A stretch of DNA of 64,000 nucleotides from positions 124,001 to 188,000 of the forward strand of contig JAIQGI010000007.1 in assembly GCA_020072565.1 (NCBI GenBank), written 5' to 3'. Under the pieces are notes generated by a model. The model was given only the letters and a program-made list of their open reading frames with translations. It was not told the DNA's origin and made no database searches. Below are positions 4,577-64,000 of the stretch, piece by piece; position 1 is the stretch's first letter; every line of letters starts with the position of its first letter. The translations under genes and the position numbers were made by a program. Origin of the DNA: Terriglobia bacterium (GTDB lineage: Bacteria > Acidobacteriota > UBA6911).

Positions 4577-6064
4577 CTAAACTTCAGTCTCGGAATTCTC
4601 CGCAAAAATCTTATATGCCTTTGTCTTCGGGTTGCTGACCTCAAGAAGGTTTGAAAAAATCGATTTGCAGAACAGCCTTGCTCCACGAACTATGATTCCG
4701 GGATTTGAGAAGATCAGCCTTGTCAATCTCTGAAGATTATTCAAATCCAAAAACACCTTCAAAAGGCAAATCAGCCGAAAAACCGGATACTTCTGCGCCC
4801 TTAGCAGAGTGGCCTTAAACCGATTCACGTCTGACAAGTTAAAGGTCGACGTTTCAATATGGATCGTATCACTAATTAAATGGTCGTACTTTTCCCAGGT
4901 GTTTGCCCCCAGAAGTCCCTGCGCTCTGAGCCTCTGATGCAAAAATGTTCCTGGGTATGGAGTTGTCACACAGATATTGGAGCTGAAAGGCCTTATCGTT
5001 TTAAGAAGGTCTTTTGTCTCCTCTACTGTTTGCCTAGTTTCTCCCTCACTTCCTATCATCAGGTAAGCATGTGTCAGCATTCCCTCTTCATGGCAAATCC
5101 TGAAGACTTCCTTTATTTTCTCTACCCGGATTCCCTTTTGAAGAAGGTCGAGTATCTTTTGACTTCCTGACTCAACGCCCAGTGCAATCATAAAGCATCC
5201 AGCTGATTTCAGCTTTTTGATAATTTTTCGATCGAGCAAGCTGACTCGCGATTGGCATCTCCAGAAAATATCGATTTTTTCGTCCCTGATTCTTTCACAT
5301 AAATCGATCACCCTTTTGCGGTTTGTGACAAAAGTGTCGTCCGAAACAACGAAAAAGTCGAGTTTGAACTTCTCCTTCATCATTTGGATCTGCCTGATCA
5401 CATAGTCACTGCTATGAAATCTGACTTTTTTCCCAAACATTTTTTCCAGCGTCGGTTGACAAAATATGCATTCTCCAGGGCAGCCGCGTGATGTGACAAG
5501 AGACAACTCGCGGAAACCTTTCGCCCTGAAATACCTTTCATAAGGAAATAACGATTGATCCGGAAAAGGCAGTTCGTCCAGATTCTCAATCTTCTCGATA
5601 TCGGCGGTTATGGTAACCCTGTCATCCTTATCCCGAAATGCAATCCCCTTGATTCCTGCAAGATCCCCGTCATTCTCCAGCGCCTTAATGACCAATGGGA
5701 ATGAGATTTCTGCTTCGCCCATGCAGACAACCTCTGCACCTAATTCCTTCAGGGTTTCCTCTGGGAGGACACTAGCATGCGGACCTCCAAGCACGAATTT
5801 CGCATGTTTGTCGCGACTCCGAATCGTATCAATGCATCTCTTTGTCGTGCCATACAAAGAAGATGTAAGTGAAATCCCGTAAATGTCCCCTTGCCCATTC
5901 AATGAATGGATCTGGCGCCAAGCTTCGTCAAAAGTGAGATCAACCATTTCAACAGCGAAACCTTGCTGCTTGAGCACAGCGCCTAAACTGGCCAATCCTA
6001 ATGGCGGGTATAAGGCGGACTGCTTTGTAACTTCCGCAGGCCATATTAGAAACGTTCTTTTCAT
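4577..6064 (-). CDS. B12-binding radical SAM protein
   Basis: 495 residues. The N-terminus (1-140) is a cobalamin-binding-type Rossmann domain with PPLGLASLGA and LGGPHASVLPEE; the core has the radical SAM cluster motif Cys195, Cys199, Cys202 in SRGCPGECIFC. The C-terminal region is helical and unassigned. I chose the ATG at 6064 because GAGAGG stands 8 bases upstream and the B12 domain begins there; the frame is open 25 codons further upstream but that stretch lacks family character. Family members methylate unactivated carbons or rearrange skeletons. Substrate unknown; the nearest genes are membrane glycosyltransferases. Confidence 0.9.
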   Translation of the reverse strand: MKRTFLIWPAEVTKQSALYPPLGLASLGAVLKQQGFAVEMVDLTFDEAWRQIHSLNGQGDIYGISLTSSLYGTTKRCIDTIRSRDKHAKFVLGGPHASVLPEETLKELGAEVVCMGEAEISFPLVIKALENDGDLAGIKGIAFRDKDDRVTITADIEKIENLDELPFPDQSLFPYERYFRAKGFRELSLVTSRGCPGECIFCQPTLEKMFGKKVRFHSSDYVIRQIQMMKEKFKLDFFVVSDDTFVTNRKRVIDLCERIRDEKIDIFWRCQSRVSLLDRKIIKKLKSAGCFMIALGVESGSQKILDLLQKGIRVEKIKEVFRICHEEGMLTHAYLMIGSEGETRQTVEETKDLLKTIRPFSSNICVTTPYPGTFLHQRLRAQGLLGANTWEKYDHLISDTIHIETSTFNLSDVNRFKATLLRAQKYPVFRLICLLKVFLDLNNLQRLTRLIFSNPGIIVRGARLFCKSIFSNLLEVSNPKTKAYKIFAENSETEV

Positions 6065-6285
6065 GTTATAAGCCTCTCGAGCCTGTTCTTCGGCTTTGCC
6101 CGGAAGCGCCAGGTCTCCACGGAAAAACAATTGATCCAAAGACCCCAGCGCTGCGTCACTTCCATCAAAAATATCTCTTCCCGATTATGCCTAACGCAAC
6201 ACGCCTTTCCCAATCATCTGCTGCCTTCACGTCGACCGTTCCTAAGAAAATACACTGCATGAAAATCGCCCAAAAACGAAGACAT

Positions 6286-7824
6286 TCAATTCTTCATAGA
6301 AAAAACCAAAATCAAAACATGATAGAACGTTTTTCTTTCCGCGAGTCTCGCTGTACCTTGCATTCCTGCGATCAGCTTCTCGGGCATGATATCAGAATTA
6401 AACGTAGCAATGATAATCCTCTTTGATTGCCCACCTAATCTTTGTACTTCCTTCGAAAGTTTATCCGAGAAATCCTCCCTCGATATCCAATTTATTCCAA
6501 CGCCTCTTATGTTTGTTCCGGGCCTGACATAGCGTTCCAAAGCAACCCTATTGGCGGCTCTGCACACAAAAACAGCATCTCCTTCCTGCACGTAACTGGA
6601 AAGATACTCTCCTGCACCTTTCCAATCGTCTTTTTTATATGTATGAACCCATAGCAGGCTCGAAAAGGAACCGAGCAGAACAGCGAGTATTAGGATTACA
6701 TTTGATATCAATTTCAGACTCGCAAACGTATGGGCATATTTGAGCCCGAAGACAGCGATGATCGGTACACCAAGGGCCGCCGGAAGAAAAATTCTCAGCA
6801 GCCAGATGGGAAGAACAACTTGAGACAGGACAAAGATGCCAATCGGATATGCGAATAAAGAAGCAGCCAGAATCGTTCCTTTTATGAGCTGTTGCTTGAA
6901 AATATAGAAAGTTCCAAAGGTTAACAATAGCCAAATCGGAAGCACGGCAAGGACATAGAGTAATCTCGGCAGTTGGAAAGGCAGATCCAGTTTCCAGACC
7001 CCAGTCACCTGAACGAAAATGAGGCCCACACTCCAAAGAGACGGCTTGCCGACCCAGTAGGGAAAACCGGGGAACACCGTGGGATTGTTTAACTGTTTCC
7101 AAAAGAAAGGCAACCAGGGCGAATAGACTAAAAAGGTGACCATTCCAGAGGCAATCCATCCCCATAGGCGCCTCTTATTCAACTGTTTATAGACCAAGGA
7201 TATGGCCAAATAAGCCACATTTAGCAGAGCGCAGTAAACGAACGCCACATGGTGGACATATAGCACAAGGGCCTGAATCATGCCGAAGGTGAGATAGAGG
7301 CGCATTCCCATTTGGCTATGAGCGCGAAGCAGAAATCCGAGAGCGAAGGAAGCCAGCGCGAACCACATGCCATAGGGTCGAACCTCTTGGGAATAATAGA
7401 CATGCAAGGGGAGCACCGCCGTCAAAAGAACCGCTAGATTGGAGTATTTCATGCTCCAGTTCAGTCCGTAACGGCATAGAAAGAACACCCCTGCCAACCC
7501 CATAGTTCCCCAAATCACACTAAACAGACGGACGGAATAATCCGTATTGCCGAATTGGACAATCCAAGAATGAAGCAGGATATAAAACAGAGGAGGATGT
7601 ATGTCGTGAGTCACCCTGCGCAGCATGTTTACGAATCCCTCAATGGCGGCGATTTTCACGCAAAGAGCTTCATCAAGCCACAAACCTCTTTCCGTCAACA
7701 AATAAAGCCGAATGCACAAACCGAAGAGGATGATCAAAACCGTGGTACCCCATAATATCCACGACCGCCGGCCATTTGCTAAATAGCTGTCTGCGTTTGC
7801 CTTAAAGACGCCGTCAGCCATCAT
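6286..7824 (-). CDS. Membrane glycosyltransferase, GT39/ArnT-like (GT-C)
   Basis: 512 residues with about ten membrane segments. GLWLDEA (47-53) supplies the Asp-Glu pair of the first periplasmic loop, the catalytic and metal site of GT-C enzymes, and HPPLFY (76-81) is the following conserved loop. Enzymes of this group move a sugar from a polyprenyl-phosphate donor to an acceptor on the outer face of the membrane. The ATG overlaps the stop of the upstream GT87-like gene (ATGA, 7821-7824), so the two are probably co-translated. Donor sugar unknown. Confidence 0.85.
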   Translation of the reverse strand: MMADGVFKANADSYLANGRRSWILWGTTVLIILFGLCIRLYLLTERGLWLDEALCVKIAAIEGFVNMLRRVTHDIHPPLFYILLHSWIVQFGNTDYSVRLFSVIWGTMGLAGVFFLCRYGLNWSMKYSNLAVLLTAVLPLHVYYSQEVRPYGMWFALASFALGFLLRAHSQMGMRLYLTFGMIQALVLYVHHVAFVYCALLNVAYLAISLVYKQLNKRRLWGWIASGMVTFLVYSPWLPFFWKQLNNPTVFPGFPYWVGKPSLWSVGLIFVQVTGVWKLDLPFQLPRLLYVLAVLPIWLLLTFGTFYIFKQQLIKGTILAASLFAYPIGIFVLSQVVLPIWLLRIFLPAALGVPIIAVFGLKYAHTFASLKLISNVILILAVLLGSFSSLLWVHTYKKDDWKGAGEYLSSYVQEGDAVFVCRAANRVALERYVRPGTNIRGVGINWISREDFSDKLSKEVQRLGGQSKRIIIATFNSDIMPEKLIAGMQGTARLAERKTFYHVLILVFSMKN

Positions 7825-9098
7825 GAAATCTCGCAGGAAGACTCCGCTTTAATCAAACCCACCAAGCTCCACGCAGAATATGCCCAGAGCACTAGCGCGG
7901 CATACAATTTTACAGAAATGAGCAGCGTCAGCAGTCCTTGCCGCAAAATGGGGGATCCGAGGTTAACGTTCCATGCAATCATAACCATCGACAATCCGAC
8001 GAGGATTTTAACAACGAAAGGATCCTCGGACTCCACCGAGTGATATCCAAGGAACACGATGGCCGGAAGACACAGGGTGAGATGATGTTCCCAGGAAAAG
8101 GGGCCAACCAGAAACATGGTCAGGAGAAAAAAGGAAAATTGCAGGTTAATACAATCTTTTGCAGCTTTTCCTTTTGAGGACAGAACGCAGGTGGCGATTG
8201 CCGTCGCGACAAGAAGGAACGCAATGGGGTACATCAGCAGCCTAACAAGAGCGGGATTATGGGTCCATATTTCGTTGTATTGGTTTTGAATGAAGATCCG
8301 AGATAAAAATCCATTGATGCTTTGATTCCATGGCGAGGTGGGAGAAAGCACACCCATTGCGGCGCGGCCATACCCCCCAGATGGGACTACTTTTGTCAGC
8401 CAGTCGAACCAGGCACCACTAGGCAAACAAACCCAGCTGATGCCGATATACCCCCCCACCAGCCCTACCGTCCAGGCCACGATTGTATATCTCCGTCTCG
8501 CCAGAAAATAGAAAAGAAGCAACGCTGGGTAGGTTTTTGTGGCAATAGCTATGGAGAGCGGAAGGGCGACAAAGAAGGGTTTACTCTGAGAGAGCCATGC
8601 GTACCAAGCCAGGCAGATAAAAACCAGCACGGCCAAGTTAATCTGGCCGAGAGCGATCGTCTTCTGAACGGGCTGGAAAGAGAGCACATAAACTAAGGCA
8701 AAAATAAAAAAGGGCCGCTTGGCATCGAAATCAAAGATCTTGAAAAAGCTGAGATATATAAAAATCAAGATACAAACATGACTGACACACAGCATCAGTG
8801 CTTGGGCTGCATCGAAACTAAGCAACGAAAAAGGATAACAAAAAAGAAGACTAGTCGGAGGATAAAGATAGGGTGGACCAATGAACACTCCATCACGCAC
8901 AAGCAGCTTATAATCGTAGGGGGAGAGGCCCTTTGCGAAAGTTATCTTGGCGGCCGAATAATACGAGGGAAAATCGATAGTGGCATTGGATACAAGGGAA
9001 TATCCATATTTGTAGAGAAAGGGGATATACAATAGTGTGAAGAGAACGAAGTATAACAATTGCTCTTTTCTATTATCGCCTGTCATATCGAAATTCAA
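7821..9098 (-). CDS. GT87-like (DUF2029) polyprenyl-phosphate-dependent membrane glycosyltransferase
   Basis: 425 residues, many hydrophobic segments. NATIDFPSYYSAA near residue 40 gives the Asp42 and aromatic cluster of GT87/PimE-like mannosyltransferases, and LYPP (78-81) is the next conserved loop. Start is uncertain: TTG at 9098 has an AGG a suitable distance upstream, while an ATG lies at 9086. Known relatives add mannose or arabinose from a lipid-phosphate donor. It leads a two-gene unit with the downstream GT39-like gene. The 250 bp upstream hold no recognisable gene before the transposase remnant. Confidence 0.8.
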   Translation of the reverse strand: MNFDMTGDNRKEQLLYFVLFTLLYIPFLYKYGYSLVSNATIDFPSYYSAAKITFAKGLSPYDYKLLVRDGVFIGPPYLYPPTSLLFCYPFSLLSFDAAQALMLCVSHVCILIFIYLSFFKIFDFDAKRPFFIFALVYVLSFQPVQKTIALGQINLAVLVFICLAWYAWLSQSKPFFVALPLSIAIATKTYPALLLFYFLARRRYTIVAWTVGLVGGYIGISWVCLPSGAWFDWLTKVVPSGGYGRAAMGVLSPTSPWNQSINGFLSRIFIQNQYNEIWTHNPALVRLLMYPIAFLLVATAIATCVLSSKGKAAKDCINLQFSFFLLTMFLVGPFSWEHHLTLCLPAIVFLGYHSVESEDPFVVKILVGLSMVMIAWNVNLGSPILRQGLLTLLISVKLYAALVLWAYSAWSLVGLIKAESSCEIS

Positions 9099-9355
9099 TC
9101 ATAAAGCCTGCACAAACATCACCGTCGGACTGTCTTGCTAAAGTTTTCCAGATCGAAACGGTGCAACAGCCGACGCGCGGATTCTTCGCGGCTTAACAGG
9201 ATACTGAAAAAAACCGATCTTCGGCAATTTGTCCCTTCACTATGGCTTTCAACGAGTTTATGCGCAGGATTTTAGGTGGCTTTTATGCTCGGGGCAGAGG
9301 ATCTGCCATCCCGATCTGCCATGGCCAGCCTGCTGACCAGGCACTTCTCCCGCTT

Positions 9356-10370
9356 TTATCCGGCGGCCTCTATCAGATTTCGCATCCTGACCAGGTTGTA
9401 GACCGCGACTCCAAGGGTAAACATTCATTCAACTCGGTCACTTCCTCGATGCGTCGTCGTTCGGAGCATTCCGACTGTCTTCAACCGCCCGAAAATTTCC
9501 ACCACTCGTTTGCGCTTACATTGATTGATCGGATATCCAGGATGCCTCGTGGTGCGCTTCATCAATGGAACCTGCCCTGTTTATCGTGTTATGGGCGATA
9601 TGAGGGGTCACATCCATGCTTCTGGTCTGCTTCACAGATTCCTTCGTATCGTAAACCTTGTCGCCCCCGAGGTTACGCGCCTTTTCCCTGGCAATTCGCC
9701 AGGCATGTCGACGGCAGCCGGTCGTACCGCCGTTCCCATTGCCTTCGTGACTCGTGCATTGACGACAAGACCGTTTCGGTTTTGCATCACCACATGCCCC
9801 TGCCAGCACAGCTTCGATTCCTGGCCTTTGGCTTTCTTATAGAGTCTCGCATCTGGATCCGCGGTCGATGGATGAGTCTTGTTCGATCTCTTCTCACCCT
9901 TGAAATCAACCGTTGGATTTACAGAATCGTCTGTAGCATCAACGGTATTGTTCCCTTTTTTCTTGAAGCTTTTCTGTCCTGCCCAAGGCTCAATCGGGGT
10001 GCCGTCTACGGTGAAATGCTCGTCGGACAGGAGTCGCTGTTCCCGGGCATGACAGAGGACTCTTTCAAAAAAGGCACTGGCAATGTCTCCGTCAAGCAGC
10101 CCGTCTCGATTCTTGCCGAAAACCGTCACATCCCAAACCTTTTCATCCAGACTCAATCCGACAAACCAGCGGAACAACAGGTCGTAATCAAGACTGTTCC
10201 ATGAGGAGCGGCTCACTGCGAACGGAGTAAAGCACCTGAAGCAGAAGAGTGCGCAGGAGTCTTTCGGGCGCAATCGATGGGCGATCGGTTTTGGCATACA
10301 GGCTCTCAAAAAGCGGTGACAGATTTTTGAGAACCACATCGACCATCGTGCGAACCGCTATTAAAGGTAG
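9356..10370 (-). pseudogene. Decayed IS5-family transposase
   Basis: Reading the minus strand through several frames gives a near-complete DDE transposase. Segments in order: MVDVVLKNLSPLFE (from 10346), then LDYDLLFRWFVGL, LLSDEHFTVDGT (first catalytic Asp), GGDKVYDT (second Asp), EIFGRLKTVG (Glu) and VAVYNLVRMRN at the end. It is broken by one extra base near 10194, one missing base near 9663, a shift near 9570 and an in-frame TGA near 9440 where the family usually has Trp. The extreme N-terminus is not recognisable. I did not find terminal inverted repeats by eye. It lies between a GT87-like gene and a sulfatase-fold gene, and both look intact. Confidence 0.85.
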
Positions 10371-10499: not shown

Positions 10500-12608
10500 C
10501 TATCGAACATATCCAAGCGAACGGAGCTTCTCTAAGGCTGGCGTAGAGAGCCGATGCCTGCCCGTAGCGTCTCTGGGGGTGAGGAACCACGCGTTCCAAT
10601 ACTGTGCCGCTACTGACTGGCACTGTTTGAGCATATCGGGTCTGGCGTCAATAAGGTTGCGGGTTTCTTCCGGGTCAGCAGCTAGATCGTAAAACTCTTC
10701 GTGGCCGGGAATCACCACCCGATCTGCGAACCAAGGCGATGTGCGAATGTATTTCCACTCTGGTGTTCGAATGGAAAGCAAGCTCTTACCGCCCTGGATT
10801 CGCCCTTCAAATATAACGGATACCGCAATATGGGAACCACTAAGGTCTGCGGAGGCGGTGAGCTGGTTCATGAGCGACCGGCCGTCGGATTTCCCAGGTG
10901 ACGGAATTCCAAGGTAACTCAGGACGCTGGGAAAGATGTCAACCAGCTGCGTCATATTGGTATGCCTGGTCCCCGCATCTCTACCGTCGGGGAATCGGAG
11001 GATCAAAGGCACCCTCAAGTCTTCGTCGTACAGGCAAACGCCGTGATCAAAATAATAATTGTGCTCCGTCAGGCTCTCTCCGTGGTCCGAAGTGAAAATA
11101 AGCAGAGTGCTTTCAGAAAGGTGAAGCGCATCCAATTCGGCAAGGAGTCCGCCGATCTGTTCGTCAACATAACTGACCTCGCCGGCATAGAGGGCCTTGA
11201 TATGATTGAGATCTTTTGGGCTTTGGATCATTTCCAAACGCTCGCGGAGAGGAAAAACGTGGAAATCCCCGTTTGCCTTCCCGGTATACTTGGCATCGTA
11301 CATCTTATTGTAGGGTGCAGGCGGAGTGTAGGGGGAGTGCGGGTCGAAGAGGTGCAGCCACAGGAAAAACGGCGCGCCGCTGTTCGATCTCAGCCACAGT
11401 CTGGCAGCATTGGTAACATTATCAGCGCGGCGTTCATATTTGGACACCCGAGACAGGAGATGCGCAGATTGAGGCAAGTTAAGCAGCAGGCTCGAGAAAC
11501 CGCGAGTCGTGCATGCTTCCGGAATAAACCAGTGAGTGCTGAAGTCGTCGTCGTAAAGCTCGAATTCCTCCATCAACCGGCAGACGTCGCGCTTCAGCGT
11601 AAAACCACTTATGAAGGCGGCGGTTTTGTATCCGTTTTGCGAGAGAATTCGCGGCAAGGTGAGTACGCCTGATTCCAAGTCAATCGGATTGTTAAGAACT
11701 ACACCATGGTTTCCCGGGTAAAGTCCGGTCAGTATGCTAGTATGGGACGGATTCGTAAAAGGGGTGGGGCTAATGGTGTTCTCGAACAGCACGCCCTGCC
11801 GAGCGATCTGGTCGATGAAAGGGGTCCTCACGGTTCCGTTGCCGTAACATCCAAGATGATCGGCCCTTAAAGTGTCCACTGTTATCAAAAGAATATTAGT
11901 TCTTTTCGATGCCCCAGTCCCGGCCAGTGGATTTCTGTACGGAAACAAAAACCATACAAAACCCAGAAATAACATAACGAGAGCGACGCCTGCCGGCACA
12001 TACCGCCTGAACATACGCAAGGAACAACATAAGAACGGCACAGTCGATACGGCAAGCGCGATAAACACAAGCAACGCTCCGGCAGGCTGAATCCCGTGTT
12101 TCAACGGACCCGATATTGTTACTTTAAGTAACAGCCCGCATAGGAGCAGCAGGTTTATTCCGCTCCAGAACACAGGCGCTTTCACCAACCGATACCGGTC
12201 GGCGATCCACACGCATATCCCGAAAGCAATTATGACCACGAACAAAGTCAAAACGTGCTCCCAATAGGCATCACTCGCCTCCTCCGAGGGAATCAGTACG
12301 ATCCAGAGGCATATCGCCAGCGAGGCCGCTCCCCGCCACATACGCCTCGCATTGCTTTTCCTAAACAAACCGACATACACGAACCTGGCTGCAGCAAAAC
12401 CGATCACTGATACACCACCGATAATACACGCGCAGCACCATGACACCGCGACAAAAACCAATTCCGAGGTCATCGGTAGTCCCGACACTTGCGCCATCGT
12501 CCCTGCAACACTGATCGCACCGAAGCACGCGCCAATCATAGCGCCGCTGAGTATCTCCCTGAAAAACGTCGCCAATTCCAGCCTTGCATCCTCGAATACT
12601 TTCGTCAT
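10500..12608 (-). CDS. Membrane-anchored sulfatase-fold (alkaline phosphatase superfamily) enzyme with Thr nucleophile
   Basis: 702 residues from the ATG at 12608, chosen for the AGGTGG about 6 bases upstream; the frame is open 21 codons further. Residues 20-225 hold about six membrane segments. The catalytic domain follows: VDTLRADH (244-251) with metal ligand Asp245, then FTNPSHTSILTG where the formylglycine Cys/Ser of true sulfatases is Thr285 and the partner Arg is His289, and DHGESLTEH further on. The C-terminus ends in RSLGYVR, usual in this subgroup. Thr at this site is typical of phospho-transferases and hydrolases of the superfamily such as LtaS, so phosphoglycerol or phosphoethanolamine chemistry is as likely as sulfate removal. 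Confidence 0.85.
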   Translation of the reverse strand: MTKVFEDARLELATFFREILSGAMIGACFGAISVAGTMAQVSGLPMTSELVFVAVSWCCACIIGGVSVIGFAAARFVYVGLFRKSNARRMWRGAASLAICLWIVLIPSEEASDAYWEHVLTLFVVIIAFGICVWIADRYRLVKAPVFWSGINLLLLCGLLLKVTISGPLKHGIQPAGALLVFIALAVSTVPFLCCSLRMFRRYVPAGVALVMLFLGFVWFLFPYRNPLAGTGASKRTNILLITVDTLRADHLGCYGNGTVRTPFIDQIARQGVLFENTISPTPFTNPSHTSILTGLYPGNHGVVLNNPIDLESGVLTLPRILSQNGYKTAAFISGFTLKRDVCRLMEEFELYDDDFSTHWFIPEACTTRGFSSLLLNLPQSAHLLSRVSKYERRADNVTNAARLWLRSNSGAPFFLWLHLFDPHSPYTPPAPYNKMYDAKYTGKANGDFHVFPLRERLEMIQSPKDLNHIKALYAGEVSYVDEQIGGLLAELDALHLSESTLLIFTSDHGESLTEHNYYFDHGVCLYDEDLRVPLILRFPDGRDAGTRHTNMTQLVDIFPSVLSYLGIPSPGKSDGRSLMNQLTASADLSGSHIAVSVIFEGRIQGGKSLLSIRTPEWKYIRTSPWFADRVVIPGHEEFYDLAADPEETRNLIDARPDMLKQCQSVAAQYWNAWFLTPRDATGRHRLSTPALEKLRSLGYVR

Positions 12609-12928
12609 AAACAACCACCTAGAAAAGCCACAACCAACAAGATTTACCTCCCCTCCTGCCCTGCACACCAAAAGTTACAACAGCAGCAAAAGCTCCCCTC
12701 CATTTTTCAGTCCAACCGATAATTTATCTCGCTCTCCCCAATTTGCACCGCCGTATGCAGCTCAAGCAAGACAATAAAATCCGTTCCTCCGTTTTACGCC
12801 AGGCCACCGTGACCGACCTTCCACTTTAATCATCCCAAAGCACTCTAGCCCTCAAGCAAGACCCAAATTCCGAAATGAGCCCAAATTTTAAATAATCCCC
12901 TTTTTTTGGCGCCAAGTCTTATATGATC
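12609..12928. other. Intergenic, no gene; short direct repeat
   Basis: About 320 bp between a membrane glycosyltransferase stop and the sulfatase-fold start. The plus strand is C/A-rich with few G. The 12-mer CTCAAGCAAGAC occurs twice, near 12762 and 12852. I see no open frame with family character and no clear hairpin-plus-T terminator. Confidence 0.4.
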
Positions 12929-21890: not shown

Positions 21891-21916
21891 CAAAACCCCG
21901 CAATTGCAGCCAGTTA

Positions 21917-24521: not shown

Positions 24522-24546
24522 CGCTCGAAGTTCTCCCCAGAATCAG

Positions 24547-41396: not shown

Positions 41397-41412
41397 TCCG
41401 GGGAGTGAAGAA

Positions 41413-42117: not shown

Positions 42118-42119
42118 TA

Positions 42120-43283: not shown

Positions 43284-43337
43284 GTCAGGCCGTACGCCCG
43301 GAATTCCCGGTTGCGAGGTACATAAACTCTATTATCC

Positions 43338-43480
43338 GCCCGAACTATTCGTCAAGCAGAACCGCCCGCCCGTGACAAGCAACAAGATCGGATGCGGACC
43401 AAGACTGAATAACCGGCGTATGTCAGCGTTCCGCCGCGTCCGAAACCGCCTTTTGATCGCATATTTATGAATAATCCGGA
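43338..43480. repeat. MITE-like palindromic repeat, copy A (shortened)
   Basis: About 143 bp in the gap between flippase and GT4 genes. Left arm CGAACTATTCGTCAAGCAGA, right arm TTTGATCGCATATTTATGAA followed by TAATCCGG; the outer ends are imperfect inverted repeats. It shares both arms with copies B and C but lacks much of the centre. The right end abuts the flippase stop codon at 43481. Confidence 0.75.
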
Positions 43481-49018: not shown

Positions 49019-49034
49019 CATCCGTTCACGCACA

Positions 49035-50042: not shown

Positions 50043-50143
50043 TTCACCAGCCAGAGTTGCACAACCTCAACCTTGGCATAAGGCATCTAATAAGACCTTC
50101 CCAGCGCTCAAGAACAAAACCCAACATAATCCACCAGGCTCAC

Positions 50144-51106: not shown

Positions 51107-51188
51107 TACCAAACCCTGATCCTATGAATACGGCAACTCCTGGGCCTTTAAAAAGCAGATCCCAGATTTGCTCGGCTATTCTTGTCCT

Positions 51189-55096: not shown

Positions 55097-55299
55097 TTTG
55101 CTGCTCCAATCCGATCGAAGTTAAATCCCCTGGTCTCCAAGATAATACTTCCTGAAAAGTTTGATCCGCCTCGACACCTTTTAATTCCTTCCAACCTGCT
55201 GTCCAACAAAAACCAGTTTACCTCCGCCTCAGTTTGAGCCTCTTTGGGCAAATCACAGCTCATCAGCATTTGACCAAGCTTTATCGGGCTGCCTCCCAA
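55093..55299 (-). CDS. Possible 68-codon small protein
   Basis: A short frame fitted between two genes: it begins at a TTG inside the last codons of the GT-C gene and ends with TGA overlapping the GTG of the DPM1-like gene. It starts MGGSPIKLGQ and ends RIGAAK; no motif is recognised. An ATG at 55269 would give a 58-residue version. The linked ends suggest a translated linker, but it may only be a spacer. No homology can be claimed. Confidence 0.3.
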   Translation of the reverse strand: MGGSPIKLGQMLMSCDLPKEAQTEAEVNWFLLDSRLEGIKRCRGGSNFSGSIILETRGFNFDRIGAAK

Positions 55300-56861
55300 A
55301 TCTCCATCTGAGGGTACATTCGCCGCATCTCCGTCAACCTCGCATATCCCAATGCCGATAAATCAATTCCAAGCTTCTTTAATGAGGGAGTCCCAGGATA
55401 TTGCTTCAGGCTAATGACCACAAAGCGCGGTGCGTTTTTTTCGAAACTATCCTGAAGATCCTGCTTGAATCTCGGCAGGCACGTAAACCATGGAAGAATA
55501 TAGTAAAATCTCCCAGGGGGAAGGCGATCCGAATCAAAATACAATCTACCGCCCATCCACCCCCAAACCAAAATTCGATCGCGCTTGTCAGTCAATGCGG
55601 CCAAATTCTTTCCCAAAATCGGAAGGTCATGCAAATAGCGGGCATATTCCTGATCGAACCATGCCGGAGCACCGTACGAGCGCAGCGGCCAGCGCTGCGC
55701 AAAACCGGGATAGATCTTGTCTACAAGCAGAGGTACATAATAACTTCCAACATCACCCAAAACCAGGATACTCCACAGCAGTATCATCGCCACAGCCCCC
55801 CTGGCGACTTTGCGACTGCCTGACTCCTTCACAAGGCGAAGGAATCCCTCAATACACAAGACCAGACCAATTACGAGAAACGGGATCGAAGGCACGACAT
55901 GCCACGATTCCCATCGCGGAAAGATGGAAAAAGCAGCACATATGCCCAGCGCAAGTACAACATAGTGTTTCCACACTAACAGATGCCGCTTCGCCTTGGA
56001 TAAAACGACAACAAATAATAGAAGAATAATAGGCGCGGCAATCGTTATGAGACGCACTATCTCACCCATCGGCGGACGCTTTCCTCCGCCTTCAATATAA
56101 CGAGTGGATAAATTGTACTGTATAATCCAGTAAAAGGCCTCACCCAATCTTCCCACAAACGAATACCACAGAGCAGCCGAGGCAATCGGCAAAAGCACAC
56201 CAGCAGAAAATGCAAAACATTTGGCAAATCGCGATCCCAGCCCCTTCGGTTTGGTATAGATAGCAATCATGAGCGCGATTGCTACAATTCCGGCGAGTTG
56301 CTTGGTCAAAAAACCCATTCCAAGGCAGAGCCCGGCAGCAAAAAACCATTTCCATGAATCACATTTCAGGATGATCAGGAAACCAGCGAGGTAAAAAAGG
56401 GGAAGGAACGTATCAAACCAAAAGTTTGTACCGCCATAAAATGGCCAGAGTATGCCAAAGAGAACGATGGAAACCACTCCTGCCCTCTTCCCGGAAAGCA
56501 AGTACGCAGAATAGCAGGTCATGATTGCAGTAGCAGAGGAAACCGACAATAAAAGCACTTTTCTGACGAGAAGAGATGTTCCAAACAGGTAGTATATTCT
56601 AGCCAGTGATTCCGTCAAAAGCGGGGCATGATGCGTGGCGATATCCTGATAGGTTTTGAAGCCCTTTAAAATTAAGAATGGCTCCAGCACCAGCTCATCC
56701 CAATCGTGGAAATATCCGGCGGCATAGAGCCAGGCAATGTACATGATAACCGCAATGTTTCCGCAGATAAGCAAGCTCCGAGCCGAACTTCCCGGATCGT
56801 CGCCAACGCCGTTCACGCCAGAAACCGACGAAATTCTTATTTTATCCCCCGTATCGTCCAT
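55281..56861 (-). CDS. GT-C membrane glycosyltransferase
   Basis: About 526 residues from ATG 56861; a TTG at 56891 with CAGGA upstream is the alternative. About ten membrane segments, with FHDWDELVLEP (51-61) giving an Asp-Glu pair in the first outer loop, then KTYQDIATHHAP. The soluble C-terminus (about 130 residues) resembles in position that of the twins at 36-39.5 kb. Likely uses a polyprenyl-phosphate sugar donor, perhaps from the DPM1-like enzyme encoded just downstream. Confidence 0.78.
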   Translation of the reverse strand: MDDTGDKIRISSVSGVNGVGDDPGSSARSLLICGNIAVIMYIAWLYAAGYFHDWDELVLEPFLILKGFKTYQDIATHHAPLLTESLARIYYLFGTSLLVRKVLLLSVSSATAIMTCYSAYLLSGKRAGVVSIVLFGILWPFYGGTNFWFDTFLPLFYLAGFLIILKCDSWKWFFAAGLCLGMGFLTKQLAGIVAIALMIAIYTKPKGLGSRFAKCFAFSAGVLLPIASAALWYSFVGRLGEAFYWIIQYNLSTRYIEGGGKRPPMGEIVRLITIAAPIILLLFVVVLSKAKRHLLVWKHYVVLALGICAAFSIFPRWESWHVVPSIPFLVIGLVLCIEGFLRLVKESGSRKVARGAVAMILLWSILVLGDVGSYYVPLLVDKIYPGFAQRWPLRSYGAPAWFDQEYARYLHDLPILGKNLAALTDKRDRILVWGWMGGRLYFDSDRLPPGRFYYILPWFTCLPRFKQDLQDSFEKNAPRFVVISLKQYPGTPSLKKLGIDLSALGYARLTEMRRMYPQMEIWEAAR

Positions 56862-56985
56862 TCCACCTTCATGACCGAAAATCGTAGCCAATCGTGTCCT
56901 GACATAGCCTGCGTCGTCCGATCAACGTTAAAGAGTTGCGCGACCAAAAAGGAAATAAACTCTGCCGGCCAGCAAATCGTGACCA

Positions 56986-59448
56986 TCAAAAATTTCTGCC
57001 CTGCGGTGTCTCGGCTGTGTTTCTGTTTCGAACTGTGTGAAATACAACTGCTGCAGGAAGAAAGAGCAAGGTAGCCAAAGAGGCGATCACGCCAATTCGA
57101 TATGAGACAGGCCTGTAAACAAACCGCACCGAGTGACCTCCCGCCTCTAAAAATACCGACCGGAACAGGTAGTCGGCGCGATAGATTTTTGTCTCCTTGC
57201 CATCGACAAATGCTTCCCAGCCAGGATAGTATATCTCGCTTAGAAAGAGAACCCCGCTGCGATTCAACCTCAGGTCCAGCACGATCTCTTCCTCCAGGTA
57301 AGTCCGAAAGGACACTTTGCTATCGTCCTGGGCAGGCGAAACATTTTCCAATTTTATCTGAGGCTGTTCCTCCACAAAGACAACCTCCTCCGCATTAAAA
57401 GCCGGGTCCCTCATCGCCTGCAAAATGCTCTTTCTGTCGCTTTTGACCACCGCCCTGTGCATGACAAATGCCCTGGGCAAGGCAGAACGGTTCTCATAGA
57501 GGTTAACCTTCACCGTGTCTTTCCTGTCAGGATCCCACGTCTTTGCCGCAGGAATACGATCAGTACAAACAAGCTTAAAACCAGGTCCCTGAAGCGCCGT
57601 GGCTGTCAGGATATACTTCGTATTCAGCAGATTTACAGCTACAGAAGAACAATTTGAGAACCGCAGAATGGTGAACTCTTGAACGGGCTCCCGATTCTGA
57701 AATGCAGCAACAAAATCGGCATAATCTTTCAGAATCTCGAGTGACCCGTAACCGTTGATGCTGGAGATCCTGTTGAGCTTCAAAACCGCATCCTGTTCAG
57801 GATAGTCCAACATAGGCAGGACACGAAATGGCAGTTTCTCCTTACTGAGAAAGTCGACCGCCTTTCCCTTTCCGGTAAACGGCGTCAAATCATAGGTTTT
57901 CAGAAACCTCGCAGCATAGATCCAGAGATCGCCAAATATAAACAGCGGCATCGCAATCGCCAGTACGTAATTTCTCCATACGGTCCGCTTGCGAACACTC
58001 AGGGGCAGAATCGCAAGCACAGCCATCAGCCCGATCAAGCCAACATCATGAGTTAGTGTATCCCGGTATTTTTCGAAATATTTTACTATCGTACCGGCCG
58101 CTCCAAGGCTGTTGTCGCCAACAGCAAGATCGTACTGCGGCGAGCGGGCCTGTACTGCGATAACCGATGAGGAAGATATACCGGCCGCCATGGCAATGCC
58201 CAGGCAGCAAGTTCCGACACCTAATAATAAAAGCTTCGTCCGCTTTATGGCCCTTTCAGTCAACTTCCAAACCTGGTTCCTTACATGAAACACGCCGAAG
58301 CCCACCAGAACAGAAGCAGCAAAAGAATAAACATACAGCAGCAGAATCGGATTTCTAAAGGTGTCGAACCCGGGGAAACATCGGTAAAATAAAGCATAAA
58401 TTGGAGTATATCTTCCCATCGCAAGGACCAGCGCAAACAAAGTCAAGATCCAGAAAAACAGAACGTATCTGTTTCTAATCATAAAAAATGAGATCGCCAC
58501 CATGAACAATCCAAAACCGCCCACATATCCGATCGCAACGGGAAACGGAAAACTGCCGGCGCCAAAAACCGCTGAACTTCGGGGAAGTAAAAAGGTCACT
58601 AAATAGGACGGCGCCATGGACCATCGTGTGAACGCAGCATAATTCTGTTCGACGGCGCCGCGGACGGAATACCGAGCAAGCTCAGCCGCAGGAACCAGCT
58701 GCACGGCGCACAAGGCGCATCCGACGACAGCGATTGCAATAAAGGTTACAATCGCACAAAAGGCAATTTGCCGTTCTCCTCGGATCAAATAAAATATGAA
58801 AAGATAAATCGAAAACAGAAACAGCGACACAAGACCATAGTAAGGACATTGTGGGTGCCCGGCGAAGAGCTGCACACCAAAAACGAAGCCTCCGAGCAGA
58901 CCGTAGACAATTTTCCTTTTACGTAAACCCCACAGGAAAAACAAAAATATCAGGGGCGTCCAGCACATGGAACTGAGCACGGTCTCGTGTCCCCACCACA
59001 GCTCATCGATAAAAAATCCGCTGAACATAAAGGCAACAGCGCACGCGGAAGCGCTGACCTTATCCATGGCCATCTCGCGAGCCAGGAGATACATGAAAAG
59101 TCCGGCCAGAAAAACGTGCAGAACAAGACTGAAATTCATGGCGAGATGTGCAGGAAGAAGAAACAGGATAAAATTGACTGGATAAAAGATGCGGCAGCGC
59201 AAGCTGGCAAGGTAGGGAAATCCAGAAAAAGTATAAGGATTCCAGAGTGGAACTGACAAAGATTGCAGATGTTCAGCATCGAAGACGCGGTACGGATATA
59301 TAAGACGGAGGTGATCTTCGACATTTCCGATTGTTATAAACCCCAATGTGACCAGTTTGTGCAAAACTGTCAGCGTTAGCACCAATAGAATCAGAGGTGG
59401 AAGAAGCCAATGCCTGGCGAATCCAGCTAGAGTCGAATTTGATTTCAT
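56986..59448 (-). CDS. YfhO-family membrane protein
   Basis: 820 residues. About 12 membrane segments in the first 500 residues, including FGFITIGNVEDH-type first loop and YPVNFILFLLPAHLAMN, followed by a soluble region with NRISSINGYGSLEI and LLNTKYILT, and a C-terminal ILFLSEIYYPGW-like element (LFLSEIYYPGWEAFVDG), the strongest YfhO signature, before a last helix. YfhO proteins glycosylate lipoteichoic acid in Firmicutes with a polyprenyl-phosphate sugar; here a similar transfer to a surface glycan is likely. Repeat copy B lies immediately upstream. Confidence 0.88.
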   Translation of the reverse strand: MKSNSTLAGFARHWLLPPLILLVLTLTVLHKLVTLGFITIGNVEDHLRLIYPYRVFDAEHLQSLSVPLWNPYTFSGFPYLASLRCRIFYPVNFILFLLPAHLAMNFSLVLHVFLAGLFMYLLAREMAMDKVSASACAVAFMFSGFFIDELWWGHETVLSSMCWTPLIFLFFLWGLRKRKIVYGLLGGFVFGVQLFAGHPQCPYYGLVSLFLFSIYLFIFYLIRGERQIAFCAIVTFIAIAVVGCALCAVQLVPAAELARYSVRGAVEQNYAAFTRWSMAPSYLVTFLLPRSSAVFGAGSFPFPVAIGYVGGFGLFMVAISFFMIRNRYVLFFWILTLFALVLAMGRYTPIYALFYRCFPGFDTFRNPILLLYVYSFAASVLVGFGVFHVRNQVWKLTERAIKRTKLLLLGVGTCCLGIAMAAGISSSSVIAVQARSPQYDLAVGDNSLGAAGTIVKYFEKYRDTLTHDVGLIGLMAVLAILPLSVRKRTVWRNYVLAIAMPLFIFGDLWIYAARFLKTYDLTPFTGKGKAVDFLSKEKLPFRVLPMLDYPEQDAVLKLNRISSINGYGSLEILKDYADFVAAFQNREPVQEFTILRFSNCSSVAVNLLNTKYILTATALQGPGFKLVCTDRIPAAKTWDPDRKDTVKVNLYENRSALPRAFVMHRAVVKSDRKSILQAMRDPAFNAEEVVFVEEQPQIKLENVSPAQDDSKVSFRTYLEEEIVLDLRLNRSGVLFLSEIYYPGWEAFVDGKETKIYRADYLFRSVFLEAGGHSVRFVYRPVSYRIGVIASLATLLFLPAAVVFHTVRNRNTAETPQGRNF

Positions 59449-59696: not shown

Positions 59697-61100
59697 TCAC
59701 ACTATCTTGCGCAGCTGCAATCCCCATCGTACAAGGTTCATCCAGCTAAGATTCATATTGCTCTTCATTGCCGGAGCGCTGCTCAGGTCGAAAATGAGCT
59801 TGAAGATCCTGTTCGGAGGCAATTTAACAAGCAATTTGATCAGAGGCAAAAGAAAGGGATACTTGATGGCCAGGCTCGCAAACCTGCTCACGTTCACAAT
59901 TTGATTGATCTGCGCAAGATTCAAAATACTGCCCTCGTTCATCGTTTCCAAATATTCAGGGCTCCGGTCCAGAAAGCCGTGTGAGACGGCATAATCTGCA
60001 ATTTCTGTTTTTGGATAAGGCTGGAACAGGTTATTGATAGTGTAATCAGGTTTTAGTTTTTGATTGAACTCTATAGTCAGAAACGATTTGTCCAGGCTTT
60101 CGTGCGGCAGCCCAAACATATTGTATGTTCCGAATCGCACTCCGTATTTCCTCAGTGAGTTTGCGGCCTCGAGCAGCTGTTTATCCGTCAAGTGTTTCTT
60201 TAGTACCTGATTCCTCAGGCGCTCGTCGCCGGTTTCAACACCAAAAAAAACATTGAGACATCCGGAAGATTTCAGCATCTGAATCACAGCTTCATCCAGC
60301 TCATTGGCTCTGGCCAAGCCCGTAAAGGGCAGATTCACTTCGCTCTTGTACCTCGCCAAGAACTCCAACAACCACTCTTTGTGAATGGTAAAGGTGTCGT
60401 CAGGAAAGCGAATCAATCGGAGATTATAGGCATCGGCCGTTGCTTTGATCTCCTTGATGAGACTATCAATGCCTCTCTTTCGCACAATTTTCCCTAAGCC
60501 GCGGTGGAGCTCGTTGAACCTGTGGTTGAAGCAAAAACTACAGCGGTAGGGGCACCCCCTGCCTGTCAGAAACTTCATCGCCGGAACAGAACGAAGCAAC
60601 GTGCAGTCGTCATAAAGCGTTCTGTCGGGAAAAGGTAAGGCGTCCAGATTATCAATCAAAGGCCTCAGATCATTTTTGATGATTTCGGAATGGTCGCTCT
60701 TAACCCACAGGTTCCGGATATCGGAAATATTGTCGCCACGATCAAGTCTGTCGGCAAGCTCGAGCAAAGCAAATTCTCCTTCGCCCACACAAACCATGTC
60801 CACGCATGGTTCCTCGATAATCTCTGGAAAAAATGTAGCATGCGGTCCGCCCAGGATCACGCTTTTGTTCAGCTGGCGCTTGATCTCGCCGGCAGTCTTG
60901 AGCACCCACCGATGTGGTCCCGTCATCGTGGAAAAAGCAACAAGTCCGGGATCGTAATCTGCGATCCTTTGCAGGTAGTCGGGGCATTGGCTCACGATAA
61001 TGAGTCGGCAGTCATGGCCGTGCTCTTTTAACAGAGCCGAGATATACATAGGCCCCATATATTCAAAAGGCACATTCTGCAGAAACAACACTCTAGTCAT
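59697..61100 (-). CDS. B12-binding radical SAM protein
   Basis: 467 residues. The N-terminal domain has LGGPHATFFPE and VGEGEFALLEL; NLDALPFPD leads into the core; Cys183, Cys187, Cys190 in GRGCPYRCSFC bind the cluster. GLGKIVRKRGIDSLIKEI after it links it to the radical SAM protein at 21.9 kb. The first domain begins with MGPMYISALLKEHGHD rather than the usual PPLG. About 160 bases without a gene separate it from the next radical SAM gene upstream. Confidence 0.9.
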   Translation of the reverse strand: MTRVLFLQNVPFEYMGPMYISALLKEHGHDCRLIIVSQCPDYLQRIADYDPGLVAFSTMTGPHRWVLKTAGEIKRQLNKSVILGGPHATFFPEIIEEPCVDMVCVGEGEFALLELADRLDRGDNISDIRNLWVKSDHSEIIKNDLRPLIDNLDALPFPDRTLYDDCTLLRSVPAMKFLTGRGCPYRCSFCFNHRFNELHRGLGKIVRKRGIDSLIKEIKATADAYNLRLIRFPDDTFTIHKEWLLEFLARYKSEVNLPFTGLARANELDEAVIQMLKSSGCLNVFFGVETGDERLRNQVLKKHLTDKQLLEAANSLRKYGVRFGTYNMFGLPHESLDKSFLTIEFNQKLKPDYTINNLFQPYPKTEIADYAVSHGFLDRSPEYLETMNEGSILNLAQINQIVNVSRFASLAIKYPFLLPLIKLLVKLPPNRIFKLIFDLSSAPAMKSNMNLSWMNLVRWGLQLRKIV

Positions 61101-61260: not shown

Positions 61261-62739
61261 TCAACGCAAGGATTCAAAGGAAGAAACAATCCCATTTTTC
61301 AACAGACGAGCATTATGCCTCAGAATGAAAAACAGGAGTGAGACGACACGCTCGAAACCGTGTTGCCGGACAATGTCTAATGTCTTTCGCCACTGCTCCC
61401 ATTGTGGCAGAGCAGGATCGATAAGTCTGTCGTAATACCCCAAACTGACATGTATTTCGTTAAATGTTTGGATCCTCTCATTCCCAGAATATTCGGCGGT
61501 CTCAAATATCGGATCCATGCCATTGCCACCGAACTGAAGAGCGCCCTCACAGTGTCGGAGCAGCCTTCCATGAGCTCGAACCCAGGCGTCGGCCTCGGTG
61601 TGCGGATACGGCACAAAATTAAACCAGAAGCCGTCGATGCCCTGCTCTCGAACGAAATCCATCGACTTCAGATCGCTTTCTCTGGTGCTGTACGGAAGCC
61701 CCAAAATAAAAAAGCCGCCGACTCCTATGCCCGCACTCTTAAGATTCCTGATCCCTTTCCTGATATCCTCCAACCTCTCACCTTTGTTGATGGCATTGAA
61801 AACAAAAGCATCGGCACTCTCGATCCCTATCCAAACGTAACGGCAGCCCGCGCGTTTCATTTTTCGGGCGATGCGCTCATTGATTCGGTCGGCGCGGATG
61901 CCGTTCTGACTATTCCAGGGCATACCCAGATCTTCCGAGATGATGGCGTCGCAAAGTGCCTCGACCCTGCTTAGTTTCAGTGTAAAATTGTCGTCTACAA
62001 CGGTAAACCTTTTACTTCCATATTTTGTCCTGGCGTGCTTGAGTTCATCGAGCACATTCGATGCTTCACGATATCGCCAATCTCCGCCCATAATCGCCGG
62101 CATCGAGCAGTACGAGCAGTGATACGGGCATCCTCGGCTGCTCAAGAGGGGATATTCCCATATCACTCCGCCATTCGCCGTCACCGAAGTGAAGCTGTTA
62201 TAGTTCGGAAAACCAACACTATCAAGGTCTATGGTGTTGGGCCCGCACGGATTGCGCTGCAAGGCACCATCCTGCCAATAAAGCAGGCCATCCATCTCAC
62301 CGATCTTAGCGTCACCCTTTAAACACTCACACAACGCGGGCAGCCGATCTTCTCCCTCCCCTTGAATGCCGAAGTCAATCTTATTCTCACCAACATATTT
62401 TAAGCCGTCCAACGTAATGTGCGGGCCGCCGACAACAGTAGTAATTCGAGGGCGCCTCTCCCGGACAGATCTCAATATCCGATTCGCCACCTCGGCCGTG
62501 AAAGTCTTTACTGAAATTCCCGCCACTTCAGGTTCGAATGCATTCAAAACAGAATCGATCCTCTGCTCCACTTCGCGAAAAGAAAGATCAGCGTTGGGAT
62601 CACCGCACGAACCCATAGTAAGATTATTTAAGTCAAGAACCCTTATTTCATGCTTTTCCCTCAGAACCTCGGACAAGTATCCAAGGCCAGTATTGAGTCC
62701 CTTATTTTTTCCGGGCGGATCGATCAGCAAAATTCTCAT
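61261..62739 (-). CDS. B12-binding radical SAM protein
   Basis: 492 residues. LLIDPPGKNKGLNTGLGYLSEVL starts the B12-type domain, with VGGPHITLDGL and QGEGEDRLPAL further on. Cys204, Cys208, Cys211 in SRGCPYHCSYC are the cluster ligands; VVDDNFTLKL and RYVWIGIESAD are core barrel strands. The C-terminal ~90 residues are unassigned. The ATG is at 62739; repeat copy C lies about 115 bases upstream of it. Confidence 0.9.
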   Translation of the reverse strand: MRILLIDPPGKNKGLNTGLGYLSEVLREKHEIRVLDLNNLTMGSCGDPNADLSFREVEQRIDSVLNAFEPEVAGISVKTFTAEVANRILRSVRERRPRITTVVGGPHITLDGLKYVGENKIDFGIQGEGEDRLPALCECLKGDAKIGEMDGLLYWQDGALQRNPCGPNTIDLDSVGFPNYNSFTSVTANGGVIWEYPLLSSRGCPYHCSYCSMPAIMGGDWRYREASNVLDELKHARTKYGSKRFTVVDDNFTLKLSRVEALCDAIISEDLGMPWNSQNGIRADRINERIARKMKRAGCRYVWIGIESADAFVFNAINKGERLEDIRKGIRNLKSAGIGVGGFFILGLPYSTRESDLKSMDFVREQGIDGFWFNFVPYPHTEADAWVRAHGRLLRHCEGALQFGGNGMDPIFETAEYSGNERIQTFNEIHVSLGYYDRLIDPALPQWEQWRKTLDIVRQHGFERVVSLLFFILRHNARLLKNGIVSSFESLR

Positions 62740-63069: not shown

Positions 63070-63131
63070 TTAGCAGGATCTGCGTTCGTTGGTTTTTAGC
63101 GCGGGGCAACAGATGGGGCATGCCTAACCTA

Positions 63132-64000
63132 TTACGACCACAGTCTCTTGATAGTGCGCGTGAGGGTGTACACATTCCCGACCCTCTTGAGAGATTTTAT
63201 AGGATGCGATATTCCGATCTTGAAAAGGAGTCTCCGGTACACTTTAGAGGTGAATTCCCTGCTCATGTTTTCCACATCGGCCGGCGAGAAGGATTCTGTT
63301 CCTATCAGGCCATAACCGTCGGGGATAAAGGCTTCGGAGAGTGTTTGGGGCGTAACCGGCCTGGCAAGATAACCTTTGCTCTCGCACAAGGCGTAGAGCT
63401 CAGTACCGTATATCGGGGTGGCGATGAGGTTGATAACTTCCACTCCATAGTCGTCCATGAGATGCAGGGCAAAGTCGACGGTCTTCCGCATGTTGCCCAA
63501 TGTCTCTCCCGGGAACCCGAGGATAAAAAAGGCTCTCAAGGGCAGATCCACGTTTCTGCAGCGCCTGGCAAACTCCTCCACGTCCGGCAGCCGGATCCCC
63601 TTGCGCACGATATGGTTTAGAACCTCCTGGTCACCCGACTCCACACCCATGCTCAGGGATTTGCATCCCGACCGTTTAAACTTCTTGAGAATCGCTTCAG
63701 TGATCGCCAGATTCACACGTATGCCGTTCGGCGTGTCCCACGTGACGGATCTTTCGGCCAAAACATCCACAAATTTCAGAAAGCGGTCCAGGTCAAACAT
63801 CAAATTATCATCTTCAAAGTGGATGTGCCCCACTTTGTAGGCATCCGACACGTACCTAATGTGCCTGGCGACATAATCGGCTGAATGGGGACGCCATGCC
63901 TTACCCATGCTTTGAGAAACAGAACAAAAAACGCAACGATAGGGGCAGCCCCTGCTGGTAATCATGGACATGTTGCGTTTTACGTCACGATCCCTGGTAT
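63132..64000 (-). CDS. B12-binding-type radical SAM protein, N-terminus outside window
   Basis: About 289 codons seen; the frame stays open through the right edge. TSRGCPYRCVFC carries the cluster cysteines, followed by KAWRPHSADYVARHI, FEDDNLMFD, SMGVESGDQ and FILGFPGETLGNM, the successive barrel strands. The layout, including W-R-x-H-S-A-x-Y-V after the cluster, is that of the B12-binding group (compare 28.2 kb); the B12 domain itself should lie beyond 64000. It ends in a short basic tail RTIKRLWS. Confidence 0.85.
   Translation of the reverse strand, partial: TRDRDVKRNMSMITSRGCPYRCVFCSVSQSMGKAWRPHSADYVARHIRYVSDAYKVGHIHFEDDNLMFDLDRFLKFVDVLAERSVTWDTPNGIRVNLAITEAILKKFKRSGCKSLSMGVESGDQEVLNHIVRKGIRLPDVEEFARRCRNVDLPLRAFFILGFPGETLGNMRKTVDFALHLMDDYGVEVINLIATPIYGTELYALCESKGYLARPVTPQTLSEAFIPDGYGLIGTESFSPADVENMSREFTSKVYRRLLFKIGISHPIKSLKRVGNVYTLTRTIKRLWS

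Follow-up and report, generated by a model that had tools for sequence, protein, structure and literature searches.

Why does one surface-glycan locus hold ten genes for radical S-adenosylmethionine (radical-SAM) enzymes, eight of them of the type that binds cobalamin (B12)? The question is raised by a stretch of 64,000 nucleotides from the 7.46 Mb genome of a Terriglobia bacterium (G000:C7:124001-188000; this whole stretch is called the window, and plain coordinates refer to it, whereas other genomes, contigs and loci carry the prefixes G, C and L). Our results point, with a probability of roughly 50%, to an island for a polyprenyl-linked surface glycan, in which the radical enzymes tailor carbons of the sugars. 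The ten enzymes are a collection and not one conserved system. Their link to glycan genes is firm for one of the two SPASM-type enzymes (SPASM-1), likely for the B12-type enzyme B12-RS-5 and suggestive for B12-RS-3.

Domains and families of the radical-SAM enzymes

The radical-SAM genes and the neighbors on which the argument draws are as follows (aa, amino acids; SDR, short-chain dehydrogenase/reductase; GT, glycosyltransferase).

4577-6139, minus strand: B12-RS-1, 520 aa; PF04055 2.6e-21, PF02310 4.2e-16; best NCBIfam match HpnJ, 187.9 bits of 577.6
20895-21893, minus strand: HpnA-like SDR (w20895); PF01370 6.1e-34; HpnA 136.7 of cut-off 367.65
21917-23506, minus strand: B12-RS-2, 529 aa (Pfam, NCBIfam)
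25757-27271, minus strand: B12-RS-3, 504 aa (Pfam); 51% relative in G100; predicted fold matches B12 radical-SAM structures
27304-28122, minus strand: DPM1-like GT2 (w27304), PF00535; 56% identical to the GT2 that adjoins the B12-RS-5 relative of L136
28204-29604, minus strand: B12-RS-4, 466 aa (Pfam, NCBIfam)
30518-32550, minus strand: two HpnA/OleD-like SDRs, below the cut-offs of those models
32622-34187, minus strand: calcineurin-like metallophosphoesterase (Pfam); 34% relative in L056
34076-35338, minus strand: SPASM-1 radical SAM (w34076), centre of module A; PF04055, PF13186; 45-48% relatives in G100, G086, G161 and G013
35148-36056, minus strand: GT2 of module A; 39-49% relatives near the SPASM-1 relatives in 4/4
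39608-40861, minus strand: SPASM-2 radical SAM (Pfam); ~30% relatives near a B12-type radical-SAM gene in L052 and L066
52874-54229, minus strand: B12-RS-5, 451 aa (w52874), module B (Pfam); PF02310 under cut-off
54320-55096, minus strand: DPM1-like GT2 (w54320), separated from B12-RS-5 by 90 bp (Pfam); three module A loci have relatives of 38-51%
59697-61100, minus strand: B12-RS-6, 467 aa (Pfam)
61261-62739, minus strand: B12-RS-7, 492 aa (Pfam); sister copy elsewhere in the genome (L034) between two GT4-like genes
63132-64000, minus strand: B12-RS-8, whole gene 500 aa, running past the window edge (Pfam)

An earlier note on this DNA had counted eight B12-type and two SPASM-type genes, and this count is borne out: PF04055 (Radical_SAM) scored over its cut-off and the CxxxCxxC motif was intact in all ten proteins, and PF13186 (SPASM) exceeded its cut-off in both SPASM proteins. 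The B12-binding domain PF02310 was detected in all seven B12-type proteins that lie whole within the window, in six of them over the cut-off; the seventh, B12-RS-5, has the weakest B12 domain of the set (27.9 bits vs. a cut-off of 32.1). The gene at 63.1 kb, described earlier as partial, is B12-RS-8, a whole gene (L002:1133-2635) cut solely by the window edge, with its B12 domain outside the window (G000:C7:188182-188562, over cut-off). Both domains thus exceeded their cut-offs in one protein in seven of the eight B12-type enzymes. Five cysteines of SPASM-1 (C329, C347, C348, C385 and C387) were invariant in six aligned rows, and by a crude count the radical-SAM enzymes are soluble, with no or one hydrophobic span.

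No listed NCBIfam model reached its cut-off for any of the ten proteins (three proteins matched 29, 40 and 42 models, of which the top 25 each were listed). The B12 proteins scored as distant relatives of HpnJ, BchE, PhpK-type and Sden_1168-type enzymes, with 89-212 bits (best 211.9) of 577.6 for HpnJ (TIGR03471), at best 111.5 of 400 for B12_rSAM_oligo (TIGR04295), and at best 294.6 of 575, by B12-RS-3, for the Sden_1168 P-methyltransferase (NF038361). A predicted model of B12-RS-3 (mean predicted local distance difference test score, pLDDT, 74.7; final 84 residues poor) adopts the two-domain B12 radical-SAM fold, which it has in common with AprD4 (6fd2), TsrM (6wte), MgmA (9ccb), TokK, OxsB and CysS. 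These proteins act on other substrates and are ~16-21% identical to B12-RS-3; the nearest are AprD4, TsrM and MgmA (~20%).

Clustering and kinship of the B12-type enzymes

The genome contains 64 PF04055 matches (63 over cut-off) and 29 PF02310 matches (27 over cut-off). Pairing of the two lists by eye gave ~24 B12-type radical-SAM genes, 23 with both domains in one frame and one split over two frames, and eight of the 24 lie in the window, within ~60 kb. When 24 genes were placed at random in 20,000 runs, the maximum in any 60 kb stretch was six, and none of the runs reached eight. As pathway genes cluster anyway, this result excludes chance but not ordinary pathway clustering.

Pairwise identity among the eight was ~23-35%, and recent tandem duplication was rejected on these values. 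A quickly built tree of 100 sequences scattered them: B12-RS-3 fell with sequences from G100 and G019, B12-RS-5 with G019, B12-RS-4 with G069 and G057 (support 93), and B12-RS-7 as sister to another copy in the same genome (L034), while B12-RS-2 and B12-RS-6 lay inside one clade of eight and B12-RS-1 and B12-RS-8 were unplaced. The earlier note had asked whether the same eight occur together elsewhere. Neither the tree nor the relatives supported one conserved set, and a joint occurrence was seen in no other genome. In G019, a relative of B12-RS-3 (39%) is encoded on one contig and a relative of B12-RS-5 (48%) on another, and no window-type glycan gene was found in the 12.8 kb stretch (L012) around the former.

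Within the class, a profile of the eight matched 34 of 38 genomes at 1e-40, counting its own, but many of these matches fall into other groups of enzymes, including two cassettes described below. Among 396 genomes of the phylum the best other match was G100. Since the class search listed the best rows and the phylum searches scored up to four candidates per genome, these searches do not yield a count of the gene sets in each genome. Matches to B12-RS-3 were few: at 1e-60 three of the 39 genomes besides its own had one (four of 40 when its own is counted), and at 1e-75 only G100 had one among the 41 genomes of the class of G100. In a scan of named genomes, among which its own may be missing, B12-RS-4 gave one weak match in Spirochaetes.

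Recurrence of module A

Module A consists of SPASM-1, a GT2 gene and an SDR gene. SPASM-1 matched 17 of the 396 phylum genomes at 1e-40 (own included), with close relatives (45-48%) in G100, G086, G161 and G013. Near all four of these, relatives of the module A GT2 (39-49%) and SDR (28-32%) were present, and three of the four loci also had a relative of the DPM1-like gene w54320 (38-51%); the exception was G100, where the contig ends ~3.5 kb past SPASM-1. A PMT-type gene is present in the G013 locus, and in G161 a distant B12 enzyme (25%) lies a few kb on. The GC content of the four stretches spans 51-72%, so they do not stem from one recent transfer.

In G100 (L056), seven genes follow each other on one strand in the order of the window: GT2, SPASM-1, metallophosphoesterase, SDR, B12-RS-3 (51%), sulfatase and GT87. 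The L056 SDR is nearest to w20895, which follows B12-RS-3 in the window, so that the position of the SDR in the shared order is loose. The module A GT2 was absent at 1e-3 from all 12 loci with weaker SPASM-1 matches (31-39%; stretches of 8-20 kb, some at contig ends), and a SPASM-1 profile at 1e-70 retrieved G086 and two weaker matches from 148 genomes of the class of G086. Within the phylum searched, module A is rare and patchy.

Recurrence of module B

B12-RS-5 and the neighboring DPM1-like gene w54320 form module B. The latter is kin to dolichol monophosphate mannose synthase (5mlz, E 6.8e-32) and to ArnC-type chains (7.5e-15). At 1e-75, B12-RS-5 matched 8 of the 396 phylum genomes, its own and seven at 39-48% from seven families. 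A DPM1-like domain lay 18-122 bp from the B12-RS-5 relative in four of these seven loci (L025, L136, L140, L141) and 5.6 kb away in L139; none was found near it in L137 and L138.

As a control, random slots were drawn in 398 kb from 20 stretches of the same phylum, and 2.2% of them had a DPM1-like gene within 1 kb. Four of seven thus gives P = 8e-6, a value which is weakened by the control resting on 2 DPM1-like genes in 398 kb (P = 0.001 at the upper limit) and by the choice of B12-RS-5, alone of the eight B12 enzymes, after its neighbor in L025 had been seen; without L025, three of six gives P = 2e-4, or 0.009 at the control upper limit. A wider survey (loci L001-L011 excluded, overlapping open frames unfiltered) covered 79 relatives of the B12 enzymes from other genomes, which are not independent of each other because vertical cassettes repeat. 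The link was modest here, 16 of them having a DPM1-like gene within 3 kb, compared with 5% of control slots.

The pair is on one strand in the window (90 bp gap), L136 and L025. Further neighbors scored over cut-off as PMT_2 in L139 and as PTPS-related in L141, and under cut-off as PMT-like in L136 and YfhO-like in L141. As if module partners had been exchanged, the DPM1-like gene of L136 shares 56% identity with w27304, the window gene flanked by B12-RS-3 and B12-RS-4.

Setting and further gene content of the island

The GC content of the window is 50.5%, compared with 57.1-59.9% in 14 other stretches of the same genome, and the flanks (L001-L003) are intermediate (54.2-55.5%). All 43 listed genes are on the minus strand (the list omits the plus-strand frames that overlap others, as well as one at 9242-10204 that Pfam did not match), and intergenic gaps are ≤100 bp in 28 of 42 cases and >200 bp in five. 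According to Pfam and NCBIfam, the window encodes seven GT2, one GT4 and one GT87 glycosyltransferase, seven PMT-type proteins (of which one falls slightly short of the cut-off), one YfhO-like protein, and three HpnA-like SDRs. Together with Gmd, Fcl, two sulfatase-superfamily proteins and a Wzx-type flippase, these genes confirm the earlier placement of the radical-SAM genes in a glycan locus, and the glycan region extends past the window edge. The remaining recognized features are:

6286-9098, minus strand: GT-C membrane enzymes PMT_2 (6286-7824) and GT87 (7821-9098) (Pfam)
10500-12671, minus strand: sulfatase-superfamily membrane protein; PF00884 6.8e-54
12929-14857, minus strand: PMT with TPR (Pfam)
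16041-18509, minus strand: second sulfatase-superfamily protein; PF00884 7e-37
23574-24521, minus strand: fcl, GDP-fucose gene; 494.5 bits, just under cut-off 500
24547-25689, minus strand: gmd, GDP-fucose gene; 531.4 bits, over cut-off 415
29624-30376, minus strand: DPM1-like GT2 (Pfam)
36116-39506, minus strand: two PMT-type GT-C enzymes (Pfam)
41413-42117, minus strand: SAM methyltransferase; PF08241
42120-43283, minus strand: GT4 (Pfam)
43481-45121, minus strand: Wzx-type flippase; PF01943 1.9e-23
45118-46899, minus strand: PMT (Pfam)
49035-52802, minus strand: two GT2 and one PMT (Pfam)
55281-59448, minus strand: PMT-like protein (25.2 bits, narrowly below the 26.1 cut-off); YfhO-like membrane protein (Pfam)

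The window looks like a variable, laterally shuffled surface-glycan island. On its higher-coordinate side it adjoins an XrtA/PEP-CTERM exopolysaccharide locus, in which TIGR03006, TIGR03013 and TIGR03019 (deacetylase, glycosyltransferase and FemAB-type protein) scored over cut-off, and TIGR03007, TIGR03108 and TIGR03099 (chain-length, amidotransferase and decarboxylase models) under it. To our knowledge, radical-SAM genes are not part of the usual XrtA/PEP-CTERM set.

Both sulfatase-superfamily proteins have Thr at the expected Cys/Ser site (motif read by eye). The protein at 46934-49189 (751 aa) is an orphan with no Pfam or NCBIfam family and no PDB relative; it matched only its own genome among 247 phylum genomes, and its single-sequence model was useless (pLDDT 35.6). 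A small membrane protein at 3559-4461 has no Pfam match, and from its start we take it to be VanZ-like. Likewise, the gene at L001:11468-12703 is presumably CysN-like, judged by its start. An ADOP-family permease of this genome scored 893 bits vs. a cut-off of 622; the family is named for acidobacteria, which is a thin basis for placing the organism, probably, among the uncultured acidobacteria. No cobalamin riboswitch or other known RNA reached its gathering score in the 104,000 bases of the window, L001 and L002, and the counts from promoter and terminator scans of 24000-43500 were inside the spread of shuffles.

Other B12 radical-SAM cassettes

A cassette of two B12 radical-SAM genes and one or two other radical-SAM genes recurs in class relatives (L015, L018, L022, L024, L027, L029, L030). 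Both of its B12 genes form their own clades, and one group has a copy in this genome outside the window (L035); in L015, L027 and L030 a neighboring gene is, as we assume from its start, metK-like. A second cassette (L004:9661-17397; G000:C18) holds four B12 radical-SAM genes, another radical-SAM gene and methyltransferase-like genes. Its loci also include L032, L033, L050 and L051; G001 and G004 carry relatives of the cassette, and relatives of two of its genes occur in G018 and G028. In G019, L031:3085-14610 (G019:C294) carries a 12 kb cluster of six divergent B12 radical-SAM genes, which form one clade of their own.

Proposed function and alternative explanations

As two small parts of the island recur near sugar-transfer genes in unrelated relatives, some of the radical enzymes probably rework sugars. 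We propose that DPM1-like GT2 enzymes would load sugars onto polyprenyl phosphate, that the cytoplasmic radical-SAM enzymes would alter sugar carbons by C-methylation, skeletal or deoxy chemistry, acting on the carrier-bound sugar or its precursor, and that GT-C enzymes would add the finished sugars to a Wzx-exported glycan at the outer face of the membrane. Modules A and B would be built into the island, and the remaining B12 enzymes look like separately recruited tailoring enzymes. The loading and transfer steps follow from the protein families of the DPM1-like and GT-C enzymes. For the radical step, we infer sugars as substrates, their carrier-bound state and the reactions from the gene neighborhood and from the sugar-pathway members GenK, GenD1 and MoeK5. 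The product may be a glycolipid, a polysaccharide or a protein-linked glycan.

In the Arn-type 4-amino-4-deoxy-L-arabinose (L-Ara4N) pathway, a DPM1-like enzyme attaches the modified sugar to undecaprenyl phosphate, from which a GT-C enzyme passes it on. The island would work alike, and ArnC-type chains are among the structure matches of w54320; the difference would be that radical-SAM enzymes replace the sugar-modifying steps. MoeK5 methylates the sugar of a phosphoglycolipid, and antibiotic clusters carry few cobalamin radical-SAM enzymes. MoeK5 (moenomycin) and GenK and GenD1 (gentamicin) are named as sugar-related B12-binding radical-SAM enzymes in parts of PMC8992657; we liken the window to them by description, not by sequence, and it differs from their antibiotic clusters in holding eight such enzymes with surface-glycan genes. 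No description of such a locus was found in the open-licence PMC literature, which is weak evidence of absence.

Several observations weigh against this reading. Module A is independent of a B12 enzyme, none being found in the G013 and G086 stretches. B12-RS-5, with its weak domain, may not bind B12. With AprD4, a diol dehydratase, as its top match, the model of B12-RS-3 does not favor methylation. No Wzy polymerase was recognized by Pfam among the window proteins, although Wzy is often too divergent for recognition. Three of the seven B12-RS-5 relatives lack an adjacent DPM1-like gene, and in L140 and L141 the two genes stand tail to tail on opposite strands. The conserved link with DPM1-like genes expected by the earlier note held for four of the seven B12-RS-5 relatives but was weak among related B12 enzymes at large, 63 of the 79 in other genomes lacking such a gene within 3 kb, as did 10 of 11 B12 enzymes of this genome outside the window (C18 cassette excluded). 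Its broader claim, that the locus makes a heavily C-modified sugar or lipid carrier, is partly supported: the genes lie in a glycan island, and for SPASM-1 and B12-RS-5 (two of the ten) the link with glycosyltransferase genes recurs in unrelated phylum genomes. The eight as a set conserved together are not supported.

Alternatively, unrelated small operons may share a variable hotspot for surface-glycan genes, with radical-SAM enzymes that serve different products, some of them non-glycan. The scatter of the eight B12 enzymes over the tree, the occurrence of modules A and B apart in other genomes, two gaps (1401 and 1183 bp) that interrupt the gene run, and the two module B pairs, out of four, whose genes lie on opposite strands would all fit such a composite. 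So would the C18 cassette, whose relatives in four genomes lack a window-type glycosyltransferase; in this genome (L004), however, the cassette has a GT4-like frame (30%) nearby. Against this stand the single strand throughout with mostly tight gaps and the seven genes colinear with L056, and we regard a composite island as a serious possibility that nevertheless falls well short of an even chance. We consider it unlikely that some of the proteins are AprD4-like dehydratases or epimerases which need no B12, in which case "eight methylases" would be overstated; this would be compatible with sugar tailoring. AprD4, which is not known to bind cobalamin, ranked first among the solved structures in both the sequence-profile and the fold comparison, and w52874 is under the B12-domain cut-off, yet the other seven of the eight pass it, and the AprD4 model (NF033070) scored 48-133 bits across the eight, of a cut-off of 500.

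The enzymes might also modify a membrane-spanning lipid, a hopanoid or a polyprenol instead of a sugar, with the glycan genes decorating that lipid. Several window proteins have HpnJ as their top or nearly top NCBIfam match, HpnJ and HpnA are among the best distant matches, and the amine-oxidase-type protein w2076 scored weakly with HpnE and phytoene desaturase models. Parts of PMC5462960 assign HpnJ to the hopanoid pathway and state that HpnI, HpnK and HpnJ are needed for the hopanoid cyclitol ether. The scores of HpnJ, HpnA, HpnE and phytoene desaturase are all far under their cut-offs, however, and Pfam recognized neither a squalene-hopene cyclase in the window nor any other terpene or fatty-acid gene among 44 window frames. 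A lipid target appears quite improbable.

Within the reading of a sugar-tailoring island, module B could be an undescribed sugar-editing unit, in which the DPM1-like enzyme would make a polyprenyl-phosphate sugar, the B12-type partner would remodel the carbon skeleton of this sugar in its carrier-bound state, and the product would then be used by a GT-C enzyme; several such units would be stacked to give a surface glycan of many carbon-modified sugars. We put this forward as a speculative and rather unlikely idea.

Implications

It is difficult to foresee from a genome which carbon-modified sugars a bacterial surface carries. Small units that recur, like SPASM-1 with its GT2 and SDR or a B12-type gene next to a DPM1-like one, would give a handle for finding and testing such sugars, and they are small enough to express. 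If the proposed function is true, cobalamin radical chemistry would be extended from antibiotics and hopanoids to carrier-bound surface sugars.

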